From: a bacterium
GTDB lineage: Bacteria > UBP14 > UBA6098 > B30-G16
Length of the DNA: 45,207 nt
Reading direction: 5' to 3'
NCBI GenBank assembly: GCA_021162205.1
Contig: JAGGZE010000090.1
Span: forward strand, 1-45,207
Position numbers and translations under genes: made by a program. This document shows positions 56-41,272 of the stretch, one piece after another. The notes under the pieces were generated by a model. The model made no database searches. It had not been told where the DNA came from and saw only the letters and a list, made by a program, of their open reading frames with translations. Positions within the stretch are counted from its first letter, which is position 1. Each line of letters starts with the position of its first letter.

Positions 56-688
56 ATGGGAATATTATCGGTTAGTGCGAATCGAATGAATATGATGAAA
101 CTTCGGCGAAGACTCTTGATTGCTCGCAAGGGTCATAAATTGCTCAAGGACAAGCAGGATGAACTGATGCGCAATTTTCTCGAAATAGTCGATGAAATAA
201 AAGGATTGCGCGATAGAACCGAAAAAATTTTAATCGAGGCGCTGCAAAGATTCACTGTTGCAACAGGTTCACTTCCCCGTGAGGAAATCGAGGGAATTTT
301 CACGATACCATCCGTCAAAGCCAGTGTCGATGTTAAATCAGCCAGACTATTGAATTTGCGAGTGCCTCGTTTCGAGGTCTCATTCGAGGGCGATGGAATT
401 TCATACTCGATTGCACAAACTCCCGCAGAACTCGATGGAGCTATGGAGGATATGTCGGAATCGCTTAAACTTTTAGTCGTTCTTGCCGAGACCGAGAAGA
501 AATTAGAACTTTTGGCACGCGAAATCGATACCACACGCCGAAGAGTCAATGCTCTCGAATATGTGATGATTCCCGATTTAATCGATACTGTTCGATATAT
601 TAGAATGAAACTCGAGGAACTCGAACGTGGGAATTTAACGAGATTGATGAAGGTCAAAGACATCATCGCAGAAAAACGAGGATATTAG
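56..688 (+). CDS. atpD: V/A-type ATP synthase subunit D
   Basis: Central-stalk (rotor shaft) subunit of a V/A-type ATPase, which couples ATP hydrolysis or synthesis in the V1 head to ion flow through the membrane ring. The 210 residues match the family length. The N-terminus has the typical basic start (SANRMNMMKLRRRL) and the protein is predicted to form two long helices, about residues 5-70 and 125-205, enclosing a more globular middle. A strong ribosome site (TTGGAGG) precedes the ATG. It is the first gene in the window, and other ATPase subunits probably lie just upstream. The stop codon is followed directly by a degenerate copy of the terminator/nested-hairpin repeat. Family identification is from recognised sequence pattern. 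Confidence 0.93.
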   Translation: MGILSVSANRMNMMKLRRRLLIARKGHKLLKDKQDELMRNFLEIVDEIKGLRDRTEKILIEALQRFTVATGSLPREEIEGIFTIPSVKASVDVKSARLLNLRVPRFEVSFEGDGISYSIAQTPAELDGAMEDMSESLKLLVVLAETEKKLELLAREIDTTRRRVNALEYVMIPDLIDTVRYIRMKLEELERGNLTRLMKVKDIIAEKRGY

Positions 689-770
689 CACCCTTAAAGT
701 GTTTTCTTTGCAAAAGTTTCCTCCCAACAAGTCGGGATTCCCTATTGTGCCTCATAATCATAATGGGTTG
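689..770 (+). repeat. Nested-hairpin repeat copy A (degenerate)
   Basis: Begins at the base after the atpD stop. A decayed terminator arm (CAC...GTG, 689-701) is followed by TTTTCTTT. The outer stem is 710-715 with 745-750 (5 of 6 paired) and the inner stem 723-728 with 731-736 (5 of 6 paired). The downstream ATAATGGG is shared with the copy at 8238. The rest of 771-833 is AT-rich with no recognisable element. Confidence 0.6.
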
Positions 771-8174: not shown

Positions 8175-8247
8175 GGAAATCGCCAAACTTACCGATGGCG
8201 AACTTTCTCCAGAATCTATCAAAAGAATCGTCTATACACACCTTTAA
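8074..8247 (+). CDS. Small basic protein (57 residues), overlapping start
   Basis: Starts at ATG 8074 with AAGGAG 8 bases upstream (8061-8066), inside the 3' part of the gene at 7827. The product starts MKTRKEYLNRRNRKIRKL and ends DGELSPESIKRIVYTHL: strongly basic, helical, plausibly nucleic-acid binding. The stop codon TAA lies inside the hairpin of a dispersed repeat. The frame is open upstream only to 8050, which limits where a frameshift joining the two reading frames could lie. Confidence 0.55.
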   Translation: MKTRKEYLNRRNRKIRKLYKQLRKQGFVAKKCFEEIAKLTDGELSPESIKRIVYTHL

Positions 8248-8301
8248 GGTGTTCTCTTTGTGCGACTTCCCTTCCGATAAAATCGGAATCCCTTGTCGCA
8301 C
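8238..8301 (+). repeat. Nested-hairpin repeat copy B (near-perfect)
   Basis: Terminator arm ACACCTT/AAGGTGT (8238-8252) overlapping the stop codon, then TCTCTTT. Outer stem GTGCGAC (8260-8266) with GTCGCAC (8295-8301). Inner stem TTCCGAT (8272-8278), loop AAA, ATCGGAA (8282-8288). Both stems are perfect. Confidence 0.85.
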
Positions 8302-8336
8302 CTGCATATATAATGGGAATAGAATGCTTTTAGATT

Positions 8337-10888: not shown

Positions 10889-11668
10889 ATGAAAAAATTT
10901 CAGAAAATATTATTGTCTATTTTCACGGTTTTGTATGTGTTGATTTACATTCCATTTTTCATTGCAATATTTTTGCCGCTTCCATTAATTTGGGCGACTC
11001 GAATTTTCGGGCAATCGTTTCATCGGAAAATGGTGAGCATAGTCCCGAAAATATGGGGGAAAATAACGATATATCTGACATTAAGCCCTGTGAAAATTAT
11101 CGGTCGCGAAAATATACCAAAATCTGCGGGAAATGTAGTCTATATCGTGAATCATCAAAGTTTTTTCGACATCCCGATTCTGCTCGGATGGGTCGATAAC
11201 AGAATTAGATTCGTTGCCAAAGCAGAGCTTTTCAAAATCCCGATATTAGGGCAATGGATGAAATTAATGAATTGCGTTCCAGTAAGCAGAAAAGTTTCTC
11301 GCGAGGAATTGAAAAAATTCAATAAAATAGCACAATATCTTTCATCGGGTGGGATAATCGTGGTATTCCCCGAAGGCACAAGGTCTGCCGATGGTTCGCT
11401 GCAAAAATTTCACCCATCGTCATTCAGACCTGCTCGAAATGCAAAATCGAAAATCGTGCCTGTGCGTATTATCGGAAGTTTCAAATTATTCCCGCGAAAT
11501 AGAAAATATATAAAACCATCGAGGATAATAGTCGAAATCGGAAAACCCGTCGAATTAGCAGAATATTCCAATATGACTCCCGCACAGCTTTCAGGCAGGT
11601 TTCGCCTGTTTTTTGTGCACCCGTCACCCGTTCGGGTGTTTTCTTTGCGTTGCGTCCCTTGCCGATAA
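10889..11668 (+). CDS. plsC: 1-acyl-sn-glycerol-3-phosphate acyltransferase
   Basis: Membrane acyltransferase that makes phosphatidic acid from lysophosphatidic acid. One or two N-terminal membrane helices (about 7-40) precede the catalytic NHQSFFD (His89, Asp94) and FPEGTRS (160-166) motifs. I chose ATG 10889 (MKKFQKIL) rather than an upstream TTG, as it begins a natural hydrophobic N-terminus. From about residue 235 the coding sequence runs through two terminator hairpins and half of a dispersed repeat, so the last 25 residues (ending RVFSLRCVPCR) are repeat-encoded. The ancestral C-terminus seems replaced. The core enzyme looks intact. Confidence 0.85.
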   Translation: MKKFQKILLSIFTVLYVLIYIPFFIAIFLPLPLIWATRIFGQSFHRKMVSIVPKIWGKITIYLTLSPVKIIGRENIPKSAGNVVYIVNHQSFFDIPILLGWVDNRIRFVAKAELFKIPILGQWMKLMNCVPVSRKVSREELKKFNKIAQYLSSGGIIVVFPEGTRSADGSLQKFHPSSFRPARNAKSKIVPVRIIGSFKLFPRNRKYIKPSRIIVEIGKPVELAEYSNMTPAQLSGRFRLFFVHPSPVRVFSLRCVPCR

Positions 11669-11716
11669 AATCGGCAATTCCTTTGCAACGCCTGATTAAT
11701 CAAAATAACATTTCAA
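11592..11716 (+). repeat. Nested-hairpin repeat copy C with tandem terminators
   Basis: First hairpin CAGGC/GCCTG (11592-11608) with six Ts, second CACCCG/CGGGTG (11625-11638) with TTTTCTTT. Then outer stem GCGTTGC (11647-11653)/GCAACGC (11685-11691) and inner TTGCCGAT (11659-11666)-AAA-ATCGGCAA (11670-11677), both perfect. A tail GATTAATCAAAATAA follows (11694 on). The plsC stop codon lies inside the unit. Confidence 0.85.
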
Positions 11717-11966
11717 AATTTCTGGGCAACAATGAATTGTCCCGACTTGTCAGTGGAAGGAAAGTCGCCCTTAAAAAAGAGCCGAATGGCTCTCCAGAAA
11801 TACTAAAGTTTTCTGGAAAGGGTTTGGGGAAACTTCTTTTTCAAAAGAAGTTTCCCCAGAAAATCTTTTCTTTCCTCTATCCGATATTATTTTAAGAATA
11901 GTAGGGGCGTATCGAATACGCTCTCATTCTATCGAGCGAACTCAATGCCCTGTTGCACCCGATTAG
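11717..11966. repeat. Composite repeat island between plsC and asparagine-synthase-like gene
   Basis: No gene. Holds, in order: a GGGCAAC...GTCGCCC outer pair (about 11729-11776), GAGCCgaatGGCTC (about 11781-11793), a perfect 15-bp hairpin GGGGAAACTTCTTTT (11826-11840) with its complement (11843-11857, loop TC), TAGGGGCGTATCGAATACGC (11902-11921), and the right half of a nested-hairpin repeat (about 11948-11975). This last element supplies the stop codon of the convergent gene. Confidence 0.7.
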
Positions 11967-26684: not shown

Positions 26685-26740
26685 TTCTTTCACACTCCAA
26701 AATACGCTCTCAGAATAATGAGAATTTTTCTTGCGAAAAG
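26685..26740. repeat. 54-bp direct repeat R1
   Basis: TTCTTTCACACTCCAAAA starts a 54-bp sequence repeated at 28170 with 49 of 54 identical bases and no gap. It ends TTCTTGCGAAA. It lies 53 bp before the HicB-like start. The remaining 26519-26684 carries two similar 10-mers (GTAGGAGGTC, GTAGGAAGTC) but no gene. Confidence 0.75.
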
Positions 26741-27467: not shown

Positions 27468-27484
27468 ATGAAAACATCCGAATA

Positions 27485-27540
27485 GGCAACAGGGAATCGA
27501 CGAAATCGAGGAAAGTTGCCCTGAAAACACCCGAAGCGTG
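27485..27540 (-). repeat. Nested-hairpin repeat copy I (reverse orientation)
   Basis: Read on the minus strand: terminator arm CACGC/GGGTG-like (27540-27528, one mismatch), TTTTC, then outer stem GGCAAC/GTTGCC (27485-27490 with 27515-27520) around a TCGA/TCGA inner stem. It is the only complete copy pointing left. Together with 27401-27467 it accounts for most of the 400-bp gap 27253-27654; no gene is supported there. Confidence 0.7.
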
Positions 27541-27582
27541 TCCGCGCCGATTCTGTTTCCCTAAAATTTTCTCAAAAATAAT

Positions 27583-28169: not shown

Positions 28170-28233
28170 TTCTTTCACACTCCAAAACCCGCTCTCAGAT
28201 TAATTGGAATTTTTCTTGCGAAAGAAAAGCGGG
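28170..28233. repeat. 54-bp direct repeat R2 with terminal inverted ends
   Basis: Second copy of R1 (28170-28223), 59 bp before the HEPN-motif gene. Here the ends pair: TTCTTTC (28170-28176) with GAAAGAA (28220-28226). Inside lies CCCGCT (28188-28193)/AGCGGG (28228-28233). R1 and R2 are in the same orientation about 1.49 kb apart and bracket both toxin-antitoxin pairs. Confidence 0.75.
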
Positions 28234-35017: not shown

Positions 35018-35098
35018 AAATAATGAAAACTTTGTCTTGACTTTTCTGTTAGAATTCTCAATATATTATTAAAGGGACTTTCTAAATAGGAGAAGGTG

Positions 35099-35806
35099 AT
35101 GGCACATAAGTTCAAATGGTTGTTTGGGTTATGTGTTTTAGAAATTGCGGTTTTAATTTCAGGATGCAGTCAATCGTCTATCTTGACAAGGCATAAGAGC
35201 GGTGGTTCTGGCGCTGGAAAAATATCCGCAGTTTCAAAAAAAGCAAAACCCCCGAATAAAGTTTGCGATTTAAGAGTTCAAGTCAAAATAACCGACCCAA
35301 TCGCTCCATATATGTCGGATTTCGGCACTGTCGATGTATATGGGAACGAAGGATTTCATATATCGAAACAATTCTCTGTCAGATTTGGCACACAACTCGT
35401 AACAATTCAGGAGCTCGAGGCAGGAAGATATTCCGTTCAAGTGAGTTATGGAACAATTGTCGCCACCAAATGCGTTATTCTCGGCTGTGTATGTATCGAT
35501 AATTGGAAAGAGGTTTTCTCGCAAGCCACAGCTAATGAATTGCGAAAGGAAATCACATCCTGCACAGGTTGCTCGAAATATACAAGCACAACGGGTTGGG
35601 CATCGGGGAACTACGGCTGGACAGGTGGAAACACAGGTGGAAAATATTGGAATCCAAAAAGTGGAAATTCAAATTTCGGTGGATGGGGTTCGGAGCAGAA
35701 AACTCCAGAATTAAAAGGTTCTGGCGAATTGAAAATGCCATGCTCGACGATTACGCCCTGCGGAAGAAATGTATCGTTCGAATTTCCGAAGGATGCGAAT
35801 GAATAA
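35099..35806 (+). CDS. Lipoprotein with glycine/tryptophan/asparagine-rich tail
   Basis: 235 residues. Lipoprotein signal peptide with lipobox LISGC (Cys near 24). A carboxypeptidase-regulatory-like beta domain may occupy about 55-130 (LRVQVKITDPIAPYMSDFGTVDVYGNEG...). The C-terminal 70 residues are low complexity (GNYGWTGGNTGGKYW, NFGGWG). I chose ATG 35099 over GTG 35096 because AGGAGAAGG is better spaced to it. The stop codon overlaps the first base of a nested-hairpin repeat. Function unknown. Confidence 0.7.
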   Translation: MAHKFKWLFGLCVLEIAVLISGCSQSSILTRHKSGGSGAGKISAVSKKAKPPNKVCDLRVQVKITDPIAPYMSDFGTVDVYGNEGFHISKQFSVRFGTQLVTIQELEAGRYSVQVSYGTIVATKCVILGCVCIDNWKEVFSQATANELRKEITSCTGCSKYTSTTGWASGNYGWTGGNTGGKYWNPKSGNSNFGGWGSEQKTPELKGSGELKMPCSTITPCGRNVSFEFPKDANE

Positions 35807-35872
35807 CGGGCTTTGCCCGTTTTTATTGTGCGAATTTCCTTGCCGATGAAATCGACGATTCCCTTTCGCACA
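35806..35872 (+). repeat. Nested-hairpin repeat copy D, terminator of lipoprotein gene
   Basis: ACGGGC-TTT-GCCCGT (35806-35820) with a T-run, starting in the stop codon. Outer stem TGTGCGAA (35827-35834)/TTCGCACA (35865-35872), perfect 8 bp. Inner CGAT-GAAA-like loop-ATCG (35844-35854). Confidence 0.85.
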
Positions 35873-36000
35873 GCGGAATTATAAAGGAAATGATACCGTG
35901 TTTAGTTTAATTGATAATTTTTCATTTAATAATGGACAAGGCAGATATTGCCTCTACTATCGACTGATTTGAACTTTGAATTTTATATAGGAGGATTGAA

Positions 36001-40253: not shown

Positions 40254-40328
40254 GGTGGGTGTAGCTCAATTGGTTAGAGTGCTGGACTGTGGATCCGGAG
40301 GTTGGCGGTTCGACCCCGCTCACCCACC
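40254..40328 (+). tRNA. tRNA-His (GTG anticodon)
   Basis: Complete cloverleaf: acceptor GTGGGTG/CACCCAC, D stem GCTC/GAGT, anticodon stem CTGGA/TCCGG with loop CTGTGGA (anticodon GTG), T stem GGCGG/CCGCT with TTCGACC. The extra G(-1) at 40254 faces C73 (40328), the identity element of tRNA-His. The CCA end is not encoded (CCT follows). A terminator hairpin starts 6 bases downstream. Confidence 0.95.
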
Positions 40329-40333
40329 CCTTC

Positions 40334-40421
40334 CAGGCATTCGCCTGTTTTTATCGTGCAACTTTCCTTTCACCAGAGTGAAATTCCCTGTTGCACCCGA
40401 TTAACCAAAATAATATTTCAA
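40334..40421 (+). repeat. Nested-hairpin repeat copy E, terminator of tRNA-His
   Basis: CAGGC-ATTC-GCCTG (40334-40347) and five Ts. Outer stem GTGCAAC (40356-40362)/GTTGCAC (40390-40396), perfect. Inner TTTCAC (40368-40373)/GTGAAA (40378-40383), perfect. Tail GATTAACCAAAATAA follows. Confidence 0.88.
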
Positions 40422-40439
40422 CCAATTGAAAAGCACCGT

Positions 40440-40513
40440 GTAGGGGCGTATCGAATACGCTCCTAAGAAGAACCGAAGGTTCACCCGCAAATCGCACCCG
40501 TTCGGGTGTTTTT
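40440..40513 (+). repeat. TAGGGGC palindrome, GAACC hairpin and terminator (copy H)
   Basis: TAGGGGCGTATCGAATACGC (40441-40460, with CTCCTA completing an 11-bp stem with one G-T), then GAACCgaaGGTTC, then CACCCG (40495-40500)/CGGGTG (40503-40508) with five Ts. The nested hairpin that should follow is truncated. Confidence 0.7.
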
Positions 40514-40559
40514 ATCGCATTCCGCATGATATGCCTCCTGTTTGTTTATTGCGGTGTCG

Positions 40560-40654: not shown

Positions 40655-40843
40655 CTTGATTTCTTAGGAAATTGCCTTGCTTTCCCTGTCATTTGTTGAC
40701 ATTTCCTTATATTTTGCGATAATTTCCTTAGAAATTGCCTCGCTTTCCATGGAAATATGTTCCGTCTGCTTGGAAATTGCAATAATTTCCATAGAAATCA
40801 TTTCAGTTTCCATGGAAATTATTCTAATTCCCTTGGAAATCTA
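40655..40843 (-). repeat. Nine-unit 21-bp tandem array encoding degenerate heptads
   Basis: Unit centres fall at exactly 21-bp steps (40665.5 to 40833.5). The core is TTTCC-NN-GGAAA-like, perfect as TTTCCATGGAAA in two units. On the minus strand the units read as heptads of consensus I-S-x-E-x-x-A. ATG 40813 to stop 40664 gives 49 residues (METEMISMEIIAISKQ...). The heptad pattern continues past a stop at both ends, suggesting a decayed coding repeat. No ribosome site is evident. Confidence 0.75.
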
Positions 40844-40908: not shown

Positions 40909-40998
40909 ACAGGCGTTCGCCTGTTTTCTTCGCATTGCTTTTCTTCCGACAAAGTCGAAATTCATTGCAACGCCTGATTAATCAAAATAATATTTCAC
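40909..40998 (+). repeat. Nested-hairpin repeat copy F
   Basis: ACAGGC-GTTC-GCCTGT (40909-40924) and TTTCTT. Outer GCATTGC (40932-40938)/GCAACGC (40967-40973), 6 of 7. Inner TTCCGAC/GTCGAAA (40944-40960), one mismatch. Tail GATTAATCAAAATAA. Confidence 0.8.
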
Positions 40999-41065
40999 CA
41001 CCTTTCAGGTGTTTTCTTTGTGCAACTTTTCTGACAACCGAGTTGTCGCACCTGATTGATCAAAA
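40999..41065 (+). repeat. Nested-hairpin repeat copy G
   Basis: CACCT-TTC-AGGTG (40999-41011) and TTTTCTTT. Outer GTGC (41020-41023)/GCAC (41048-41051). Inner GACAAC-CGA-GTTGTC (41033-41047), perfect. Tail GATTGATCAAAA. Confidence 0.8.
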
Positions 41066-41071
41066 TTTCTC

Positions 41072-41155
41072 GGCGACAATGAATTTCACTCTTCTGAAAG
41101 ACCCCGATTTTATCGGGATTAAGAAAAAAGTCGCCCATAGAAAGAACCGAAGGTT
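41072..41155. repeat. Second-type nested hairpin (copy J)
   Basis: Outer GGCGAC (41072-41077)/GTCGCC (41130-41135). Inner CCCGAT-TTT-ATCGGG (41103-41117). Followed by GAACCgaaGGTTC (about 41143-41155). The same order (GGCRAC, inner stem, GTCGCC, then a GARCC hairpin) occurs at 11729-11793. The remaining bases of 40329-41272 show nothing else. Confidence 0.7.
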
Positions 41156-41272
41156 CCCTGATATATTTTGTGAAATCTCACTATTGAAATTAAAAATAAT
41201 TTTGAAATATGTGAAAATATTGCAATAATGAGCATATCAATAATTTTTGGAATATCTTTTTTCGATTCGATT

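Follow-up and report, generated by a model that had tools for sequence, protein, structure and literature searches.

At positions 8238–8301 of the 45,207-nt window (the whole stretch of DNA that was analysed) lies a terminator-like hairpin followed by a nested double hairpin, and both the sequence and the folding agree with the description given of this locus in the initial sequence-only reading. The unit, approx. 65–75 bp long, consists of two separate hairpins, the second of which is nested. In order, it comprises hairpin 1 with its T-run, a 7-bp outer stem, within which lie a pyrimidine-rich internal loop with a conserved sequence and an inner hairpin that varies greatly, and an AT-rich tail. 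The stems of hairpin 1 are short (5–7 bp); in the 8238 copy this hairpin has the form ACACC-TTTAA-GGTGT (8238–8252) and is followed by TCTCTTT. Folded as RNA, this copy gave z-scores of −7.7 on the plus strand and −5.3 on the minus strand.

A blastn comparison of the 8238 copy with the whole genome produced 52 matches besides the query itself, with E values down to 1e-15. A covariance model (R1) was built from an alignment of 51 copies (A1), in which the structure (terminator hairpin, 7-bp outer stem, inner hairpin) had been fixed by hand. The parts of the 8238 copy and the other copies found in the window with R1 are as follows:

8238–8311, plus strand: whole modelled element unit (R1 76.2 bits, E 1.5e-15; fold z −7.7)
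8238–8252, plus strand: hairpin 1, intrinsic-terminator-like, ACACCTTTAAGGTGT then TCTCTTT (terminator scan, sequence)
8260–8266, plus strand: outer stem, 5′ arm GTGCGAC (sequence; outer helix 97% paired in the family)
8274–8286, plus strand: inner hairpin CCGAT-AAA-ATCGG, the variable module (sequence and structure; 88 forms in 172 parsed copies)
8295–8301, plus strand: outer stem, 3′ arm GTCGCAC (sequence)
688–760, plus strand: degenerate copy directly 3′ of the ATP synthase subunit D gene (56–688; Pfam) (R1 39.6 bits; fold z −0.02)
11625–11701, plus strand: copy with outer stem GCGTTGC/GCAACGC (R1 78.3 bits)
11714–11792, minus strand: inverted copy, tail-to-tail with 11625–11701 (R1 57.4 bits)
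27474–27541, minus strand: copy with outer stem GGCAAC/GTTGCC (R1 39.5 bits)
35806–35881, plus strand: copy beginning at the stop codon of ORF 35096–35806 (R1 64 bits)
40334–40406, plus strand: copy 6 bases 3′ of a tRNA gene (40255–40328, plus strand; tRNA by Rfam) (R1 75.9 bits)
40495–40544, plus strand: partial copy, hairpin 1 and part of the outer stem (R1 23.2 bits, E 0.007)
40910–40983, plus strand: copy with outer stem GCATTGC/GCAACGC (R1 77.8 bits)
40998–41061, plus strand: tandem copy in direct orientation (R1 49.5 bits)
41061–41157, minus strand: inverted copy with two inner hairpins, tail-to-tail with 40998–41061 (R1 33.8 bits)

Of the loci named in the sequence-only reading, the one placed at 27485 lies on the minus strand and spans 27474–27541, and the one placed at 11592 is real but begins at 11625 (a separate hairpin is located at 11592), while the minus-strand copies at 11714 and 41061 had been missed. 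That reading also held that the loci share an architecture but differ in sequence, which proved incorrect: the copies form one sequence family, sharing the T-rich spacer and the internal-loop motifs TTYCCTT and AATTCMHT, and it is chiefly the stems that vary.

Other repeats were also found in the window. A third palindromic repeat (GTAGGGGCGTATCGAATACGCTCCTAA) adjoins the element at 40438–40470, and similar copies follow element copies in loci L006 and L014. AT-rich overlapping inverted repeats of the TTTCCATGGAAAT type (detected with a repeat finder) lie between element copies at 40770–40840, and a 54-base direct repeat (91% identical) occurs at 26685–26738 and 28170–28223, approx. 1.5 kb apart.

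Scanning of the genome with R1 revealed at least 150 places with E ≤ 1.4e-9, and 286 matches were obtained at E ≤ 0.1 from 100 fetched sources. After merging of overlaps and removal of weak matches, the 2.57-Mb genome was found to contain at least 251 unique copies at approx. 111 sites, some of them in tandem arrays, although both the arrays and the copy number are approximate, since the genome is split among 185 contigs and is apparently a metagenome assembly. A large share of the copies is located at contig ends (e.g. of C126, C60, C81, C96 and C100), so that the repeat is a probable cause of assembly breaks, and more copies than those counted probably exist.

This high copy number is confined to one lineage. 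The first R1 scan, of 61 genomes, gave matches only in two sister genera of the same family (five in G005 and two in G001; E 4e-8 to 1e-3). With laxer limits these numbers rose to seven and three, and single doubtful matches appeared in G003 and G007. The copies in the sister genera are few and divergent, most relatives within the family lack the element, and no match was obtained in the 53 genomes from outside the family. The dispersed family proposed from the window alone is therefore real and, as the blastn and R1 E values testify, far beyond chance. It had not been recognised as a named family, and indeed no Rfam family matched it at the gathering score, the sole match in the window being the tRNA. 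A strict exact-pattern scan of genome contigs and viral contigs, which divergent copies would escape, identified no carriers.

The single-stranded motifs of the element are better conserved than its stems. The T-rich spacer takes the forms TTTTCTTT, TTTTTATT and similar, and the internal loop carries TTYCCTT on its 5′ side and AATTCMHT on its 3′ side; these loop motifs are identical in G001 and G005, although the stems there differ. The two sides of the loop are strongly coupled in alignments A1–A3 (TTTCT with CATT, TTCCT with CCCT, TCCCT with CCTT; chi-square p ~1e-37, and 1e-12 inside one stem class) and Watson-Crick pairing does not account for this. The coupling may reflect sublineages or recognition by a protein. 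A scheme in which the other strand forms tandem G·A pairs across its internal loop was considered and dropped, as it does not fit some of the loop classes.

We analyzed the position of the copies relative to genes predicted with a simple codon-usage script, so that all distances are approximate. The neighbouring gene on the 5′ side is on the same strand in 94 cases (in 58 of which its end is within 20 nt of the copy) and on the opposite strand in 47. Among the 76 classifiable sites, 28 are located between convergent genes and only two between divergent genes, compared with a baseline of 19 divergent arrangements in 156 gene pairs of the same loci. Adjacent copies are arranged directly (73), tail-to-tail (54) or head-to-head (13). 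All six tRNA-adjacent copies of this genome (at the window tRNA 40255–40328 and in L007, L017, L191, L195 and L201) lie downstream of the tRNA, on the same strand, at a distance of 0–15 nt, and three more copies in G001 and G005 are placed 3′ of a tRNA on the strand of that tRNA.

A terminator scan called hairpin 1 in several copies. At the level of sequence, this hairpin has the features of an intrinsic terminator (a GC-rich hairpin with a T-run immediately after it, in sense orientation, 3′ of genes), which suggests that it may serve as a putative terminator of the preceding gene.

Copies were also identified inside genes (approx. 10 overall), all in antisense orientation and, with few exceptions, in C-terminal sorting domains of type IX secretion, for which 68 matches were found in this genome. 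The element had been suspected to be REP-like, and its distribution, 3′ of genes with occasional in-frame copies within them, bears this out. Directly before the motif (T)LKV[YF]DLRGN a copy is present in seven sorting domains (L215, L216, L218, L226, L227, L231 and L238), and copies in a second linker occur in L026 and L238. All nine in-frame sorting-domain copies of this genome are antisense to the gene and leave the frame open to the normal C-terminus. This bias fits the loss of sense copies, which would stop transcription. Elsewhere, an antisense copy adjoins the same domain in L063 of G005, where the frame is broken, and another (L192) overlaps the start of a gene.

The copy-free paralogs of these domains read SSxxITAPAGAEVEIYDLRGN and lack the segment encoded by the element. 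These paralogs differ by replacement and not by simple insertion, and so offer neither a clean empty site nor a target duplication. Nearly identical copies occur in L215, L216 and L218, and these may stem from one event via duplication of the domain; more generally, the seven sorting-domain copies may derive in part from domain duplication or gene conversion. Hairpin 1 is present in the in-gene copies (as ACCTTAAAGGT and AGAACCGAATGGTTCT), and the terminator therefore belongs to the unit. The alternative, that hairpin 1 is part of the target gene and that the element inserts after hairpins, was rejected: the element-free paralogs lack the ACCTTAAAGGT hairpin.

In L215–L244, many sorting-domain linkers are encoded in frame by dispersed repeats, among them SPDRDNRHREMSP, which comes from a repeat family with GTAG feet (see below), while GATRWVAQEKGDASHR and others resemble additional repeats. 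It seems that repeats have a general landing zone in these linkers. Their construction in frame from dispersed repeats represents a route from repeat to protein sequence.

The outer stems had been described as covarying, and this was confirmed. In the alignment fitted to the model, pairing of the outer helix reaches 98.5%, with both-side changes in six of the seven pairs. Because the seed copies had been picked by pairing, the test was repeated with a base-pair-free model (R2), which recruits copies by sequence alone. In the copies recruited in this way the outer stem is still 97.0% paired. Double-changed cells numbered 175 versus 50 in shuffles, counts that are not independent, since only a few classes of arms occur (GTGCAAC/GTTGCAC, 87; GCGTTGC/GCAACGC, 16; GCATTGC/GCAATGC, 13; others rarer), so that few independent outer-stem events underlie them. 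The covariation score was 0.52 versus 0.24, and sliding of the partner abolished the signal. The inner hairpin is far more varied than the outer stem, and most of its forms are self-complementary.

Covariation had been taken as a sign of selection on structured RNA (or single-stranded DNA). In a fold that is kept as RNA, one-sided changes that leave G·U are expected to outlast those that leave A·C. Among the one-sided mismatches of the outer stem in the sequence-only set we counted 16 G·T and 18 A·C, and over all three stems 37 G·T and 35 A·C, the latter two counts from a set whose filtering favoured G·T. Moreover, the folding z-scores revealed that both strands of the element fold equally well, and in a sense copy the terminator hairpin of the element precedes the nested stem, so most transcripts should lack that stem. 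These three observations argue against upkeep of existing copies at the RNA level, and selection on RNA is therefore not supported. The equal numbers of G·T and A·C mismatches point to drift of copies once they have inserted, and not to maintenance of an RNA fold, and the data fit a palindrome that is maintained at the DNA level, its complementarity being preserved or re-established during copying of the element.

Di Nocera and colleagues took the frequency of G·T pairs in REPs as a sign that these repeats function as RNA (PMC3733652); the present element, in contrast to their REPs, does not exhibit such an excess. If our interpretation is true, it calls for caution, as covariation within a repeat family can reflect upkeep of a DNA palindrome and not an RNA function. 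The balance of G·T against A·C among one-sided changes offers a cheap test for covariation-based RNA discoveries in repeat-rich genomes.

The explanation that we favour, with a probability of approx. 0.72, is that of a mobile palindromic element of the REP/RPE kind, non-autonomous, specific to one lineage and equipped with a predicted intrinsic terminator of its own. Such an element could move as a folded single strand, or by replication-linked copying that needs or restores the palindrome, and either route would account for stems that remain complementary while the loop motifs are fixed. New copies would be purged wherever the terminator or the insertion harms a gene. Such purging would spare sense copies after stop codons and tRNAs, copies arranged tail-to-tail where genes converge, and in-frame copies that run antisense in tolerant linkers, and many of the survivors that follow a gene may now act as its terminator.

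A bolder extension can be put forward only tentatively: that this selfish palindromic element is a mobile transcription terminator, which for many genes and tRNAs provides the functional 3′ end, is tolerated within genes only in antisense, has its inner hairpin freely replaced, and by its movement continually rebuilds terminators and the linkers of export domains. If this is true, the terminators of many genes in one genome derive from a mobile repeat.

It is conceivable, at odds well below even, that the covariation is purely mutational, i.e. that template switching copies one arm of a palindrome onto the other and thereby generates paired changes without function in otherwise inert repeats. 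According to published accounts, this is an established mechanism (PMC8794818, PMC7202029), and template switching alone can yield compensatory changes in palindromes (PMC8794818). The discrete whole-arm changes with few intermediates, the diversity of inner hairpins and the lack of strand preference among mismatches are all in line with it. However, on its own it leaves unexplained the high copy number and the conserved internal-loop motifs, as well as the coupling of the two loop sides and the orientation bias at genes. Template switching can also act jointly with mobility of the element.

We consider it unlikely that the element is a REP proper, mobilised by a RAYT-type Y1 transposase of this genome as REPs of E. 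coli are by TnpAREP. In favour of such a partnership, the element is palindromic, extragenic, clustered and located 3′ of genes, and the genome encodes three Y1_Tnp genes, one of which (on contig C129) has an element copy close by, on its upstream side (L031:1881–1976). However, the tags expected at the stem feet are missing: neither GTAG nor CGTC occurs at the 5′ foot in any of 166 copies, and at the 3′ foot GTAG/CTAC was found in two and CGTC/GACG in none of the 166. Homologues of the C129 gene, of similar size, are present in relatives both with and without the element, and in the element carriers G001 and G005 no copy flanks them; the C129 transposase is therefore unsupported as a partner. 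Mobilisation by a transposase encoded elsewhere in the genome, suggested in the sequence-only reading, thus gains no clear support from these Y1_Tnp genes.

A second repeat family (GTAGGAGAGGTCTCCCGACC ... GGAGATGTCTCCTAC), with GTAG at its feet and 27 matches in the genome, is located on both sides of the Y1_Tnp gene of contig C149 (L033:1330–1370 and 1810–1885). This gene and the GTAG repeat look like a canonical REP/RAYT pair, so that the C149 gene has a better partner than the element.

Less probable still is a functional 3′-UTR RNA module, in which a transcribed terminator and nested hairpin protect or regulate mRNAs and which has spread by selection and not by mobility. The strong covariation of the stems, the sense position immediately 3′ of stop codons and tRNAs, and the conservation of both loop motifs across genera could all be read in this way. 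Such a module, however, would hardly have its nested stem beyond its own terminator, where in sense it is mostly untranscribed, nor does it agree with the absence of a G·T preference or with the antisense copies inside coding genes. The copies also follow unrelated genes and tRNAs, occur in tandem arrays and are absent from most relatives of the same family.

That the copies are attC-like recombination sites of an integron is highly improbable, and this identity was rejected. They do follow stop codons in sense, possess a 7-bp outer stem, an unpaired spacer in the centre and a terminal part that varies, and GTGCAAC/GTTGCAC is one base per side off the RYYYAAC/GTTRRRY consensus. However, this consensus is not matched, and in approx. 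one third of the copies the arms are GCRTTGC/GCAAYGC or GGCGAC/GTCGCC, which lack the G-TT cleavage site. The copies are spread over 80 contigs, where they follow housekeeping genes and tRNAs and do not make up a single cassette array, and no integron integrase in the genome scored over the curated cut-off (weak matches were found as in all 14 control genomes).

The mobile palindromic element that we favour can be compared with several known types of dispersed repeats. ERIC, RUP, NEMIS, BOX and Bcr1 are bacterial MITE-like repeats of 70–200 bp, which are intergenic, structured and modular and can influence neighbouring genes. The element shares the intergenic location, the structure and the modularity. 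Unlike these repeats, it bears a terminator at one end and has a replaceable inner hairpin, and we saw in it no terminal inverted repeats of known insertion sequences.

Double-hairpin elements are dispersed genomic units of two hairpins or palindromes, in which respect the element resembles them. Those of organelles, like organelle palindromic repeats, are not known to have a terminator module or a preference for gene ends, and the element described here differs from them in being bacterial. Publications on such organelle repeats include PMC5910586, PMC7218506 and PMC4524435.

The element is also similar to REP, BIME and REPIN sequences (PMC3733652, PMC3116915). These, too, are short palindromic extragenic repeats that number in the hundreds, reside mostly 3′ of genes where the neighbouring genes are co-directional or convergent, form dimers and clusters, have some copies within genes, and are distributed patchily across species. 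The element differs from them in that it lacks the GTAG/CGTC tag, is approx. 65–75 bp long (versus 20–40 bp), and bears both a terminator hairpin with a T-run and a second, nested, highly variable hairpin. It acts like a REP or an RPE but falls outside REPs proper in tag and size.

Rickettsia palindromic elements (RPEs) are palindromic repeats that occupy intergenic positions as well as in-frame positions within protein genes (PMC3733652), and by this description the element, with its intergenic and in-frame copies, is likened to them. In contrast to RPEs, its in-gene copies gather in the linkers of type IX sorting domains, where all of them are antisense and carry the terminator.
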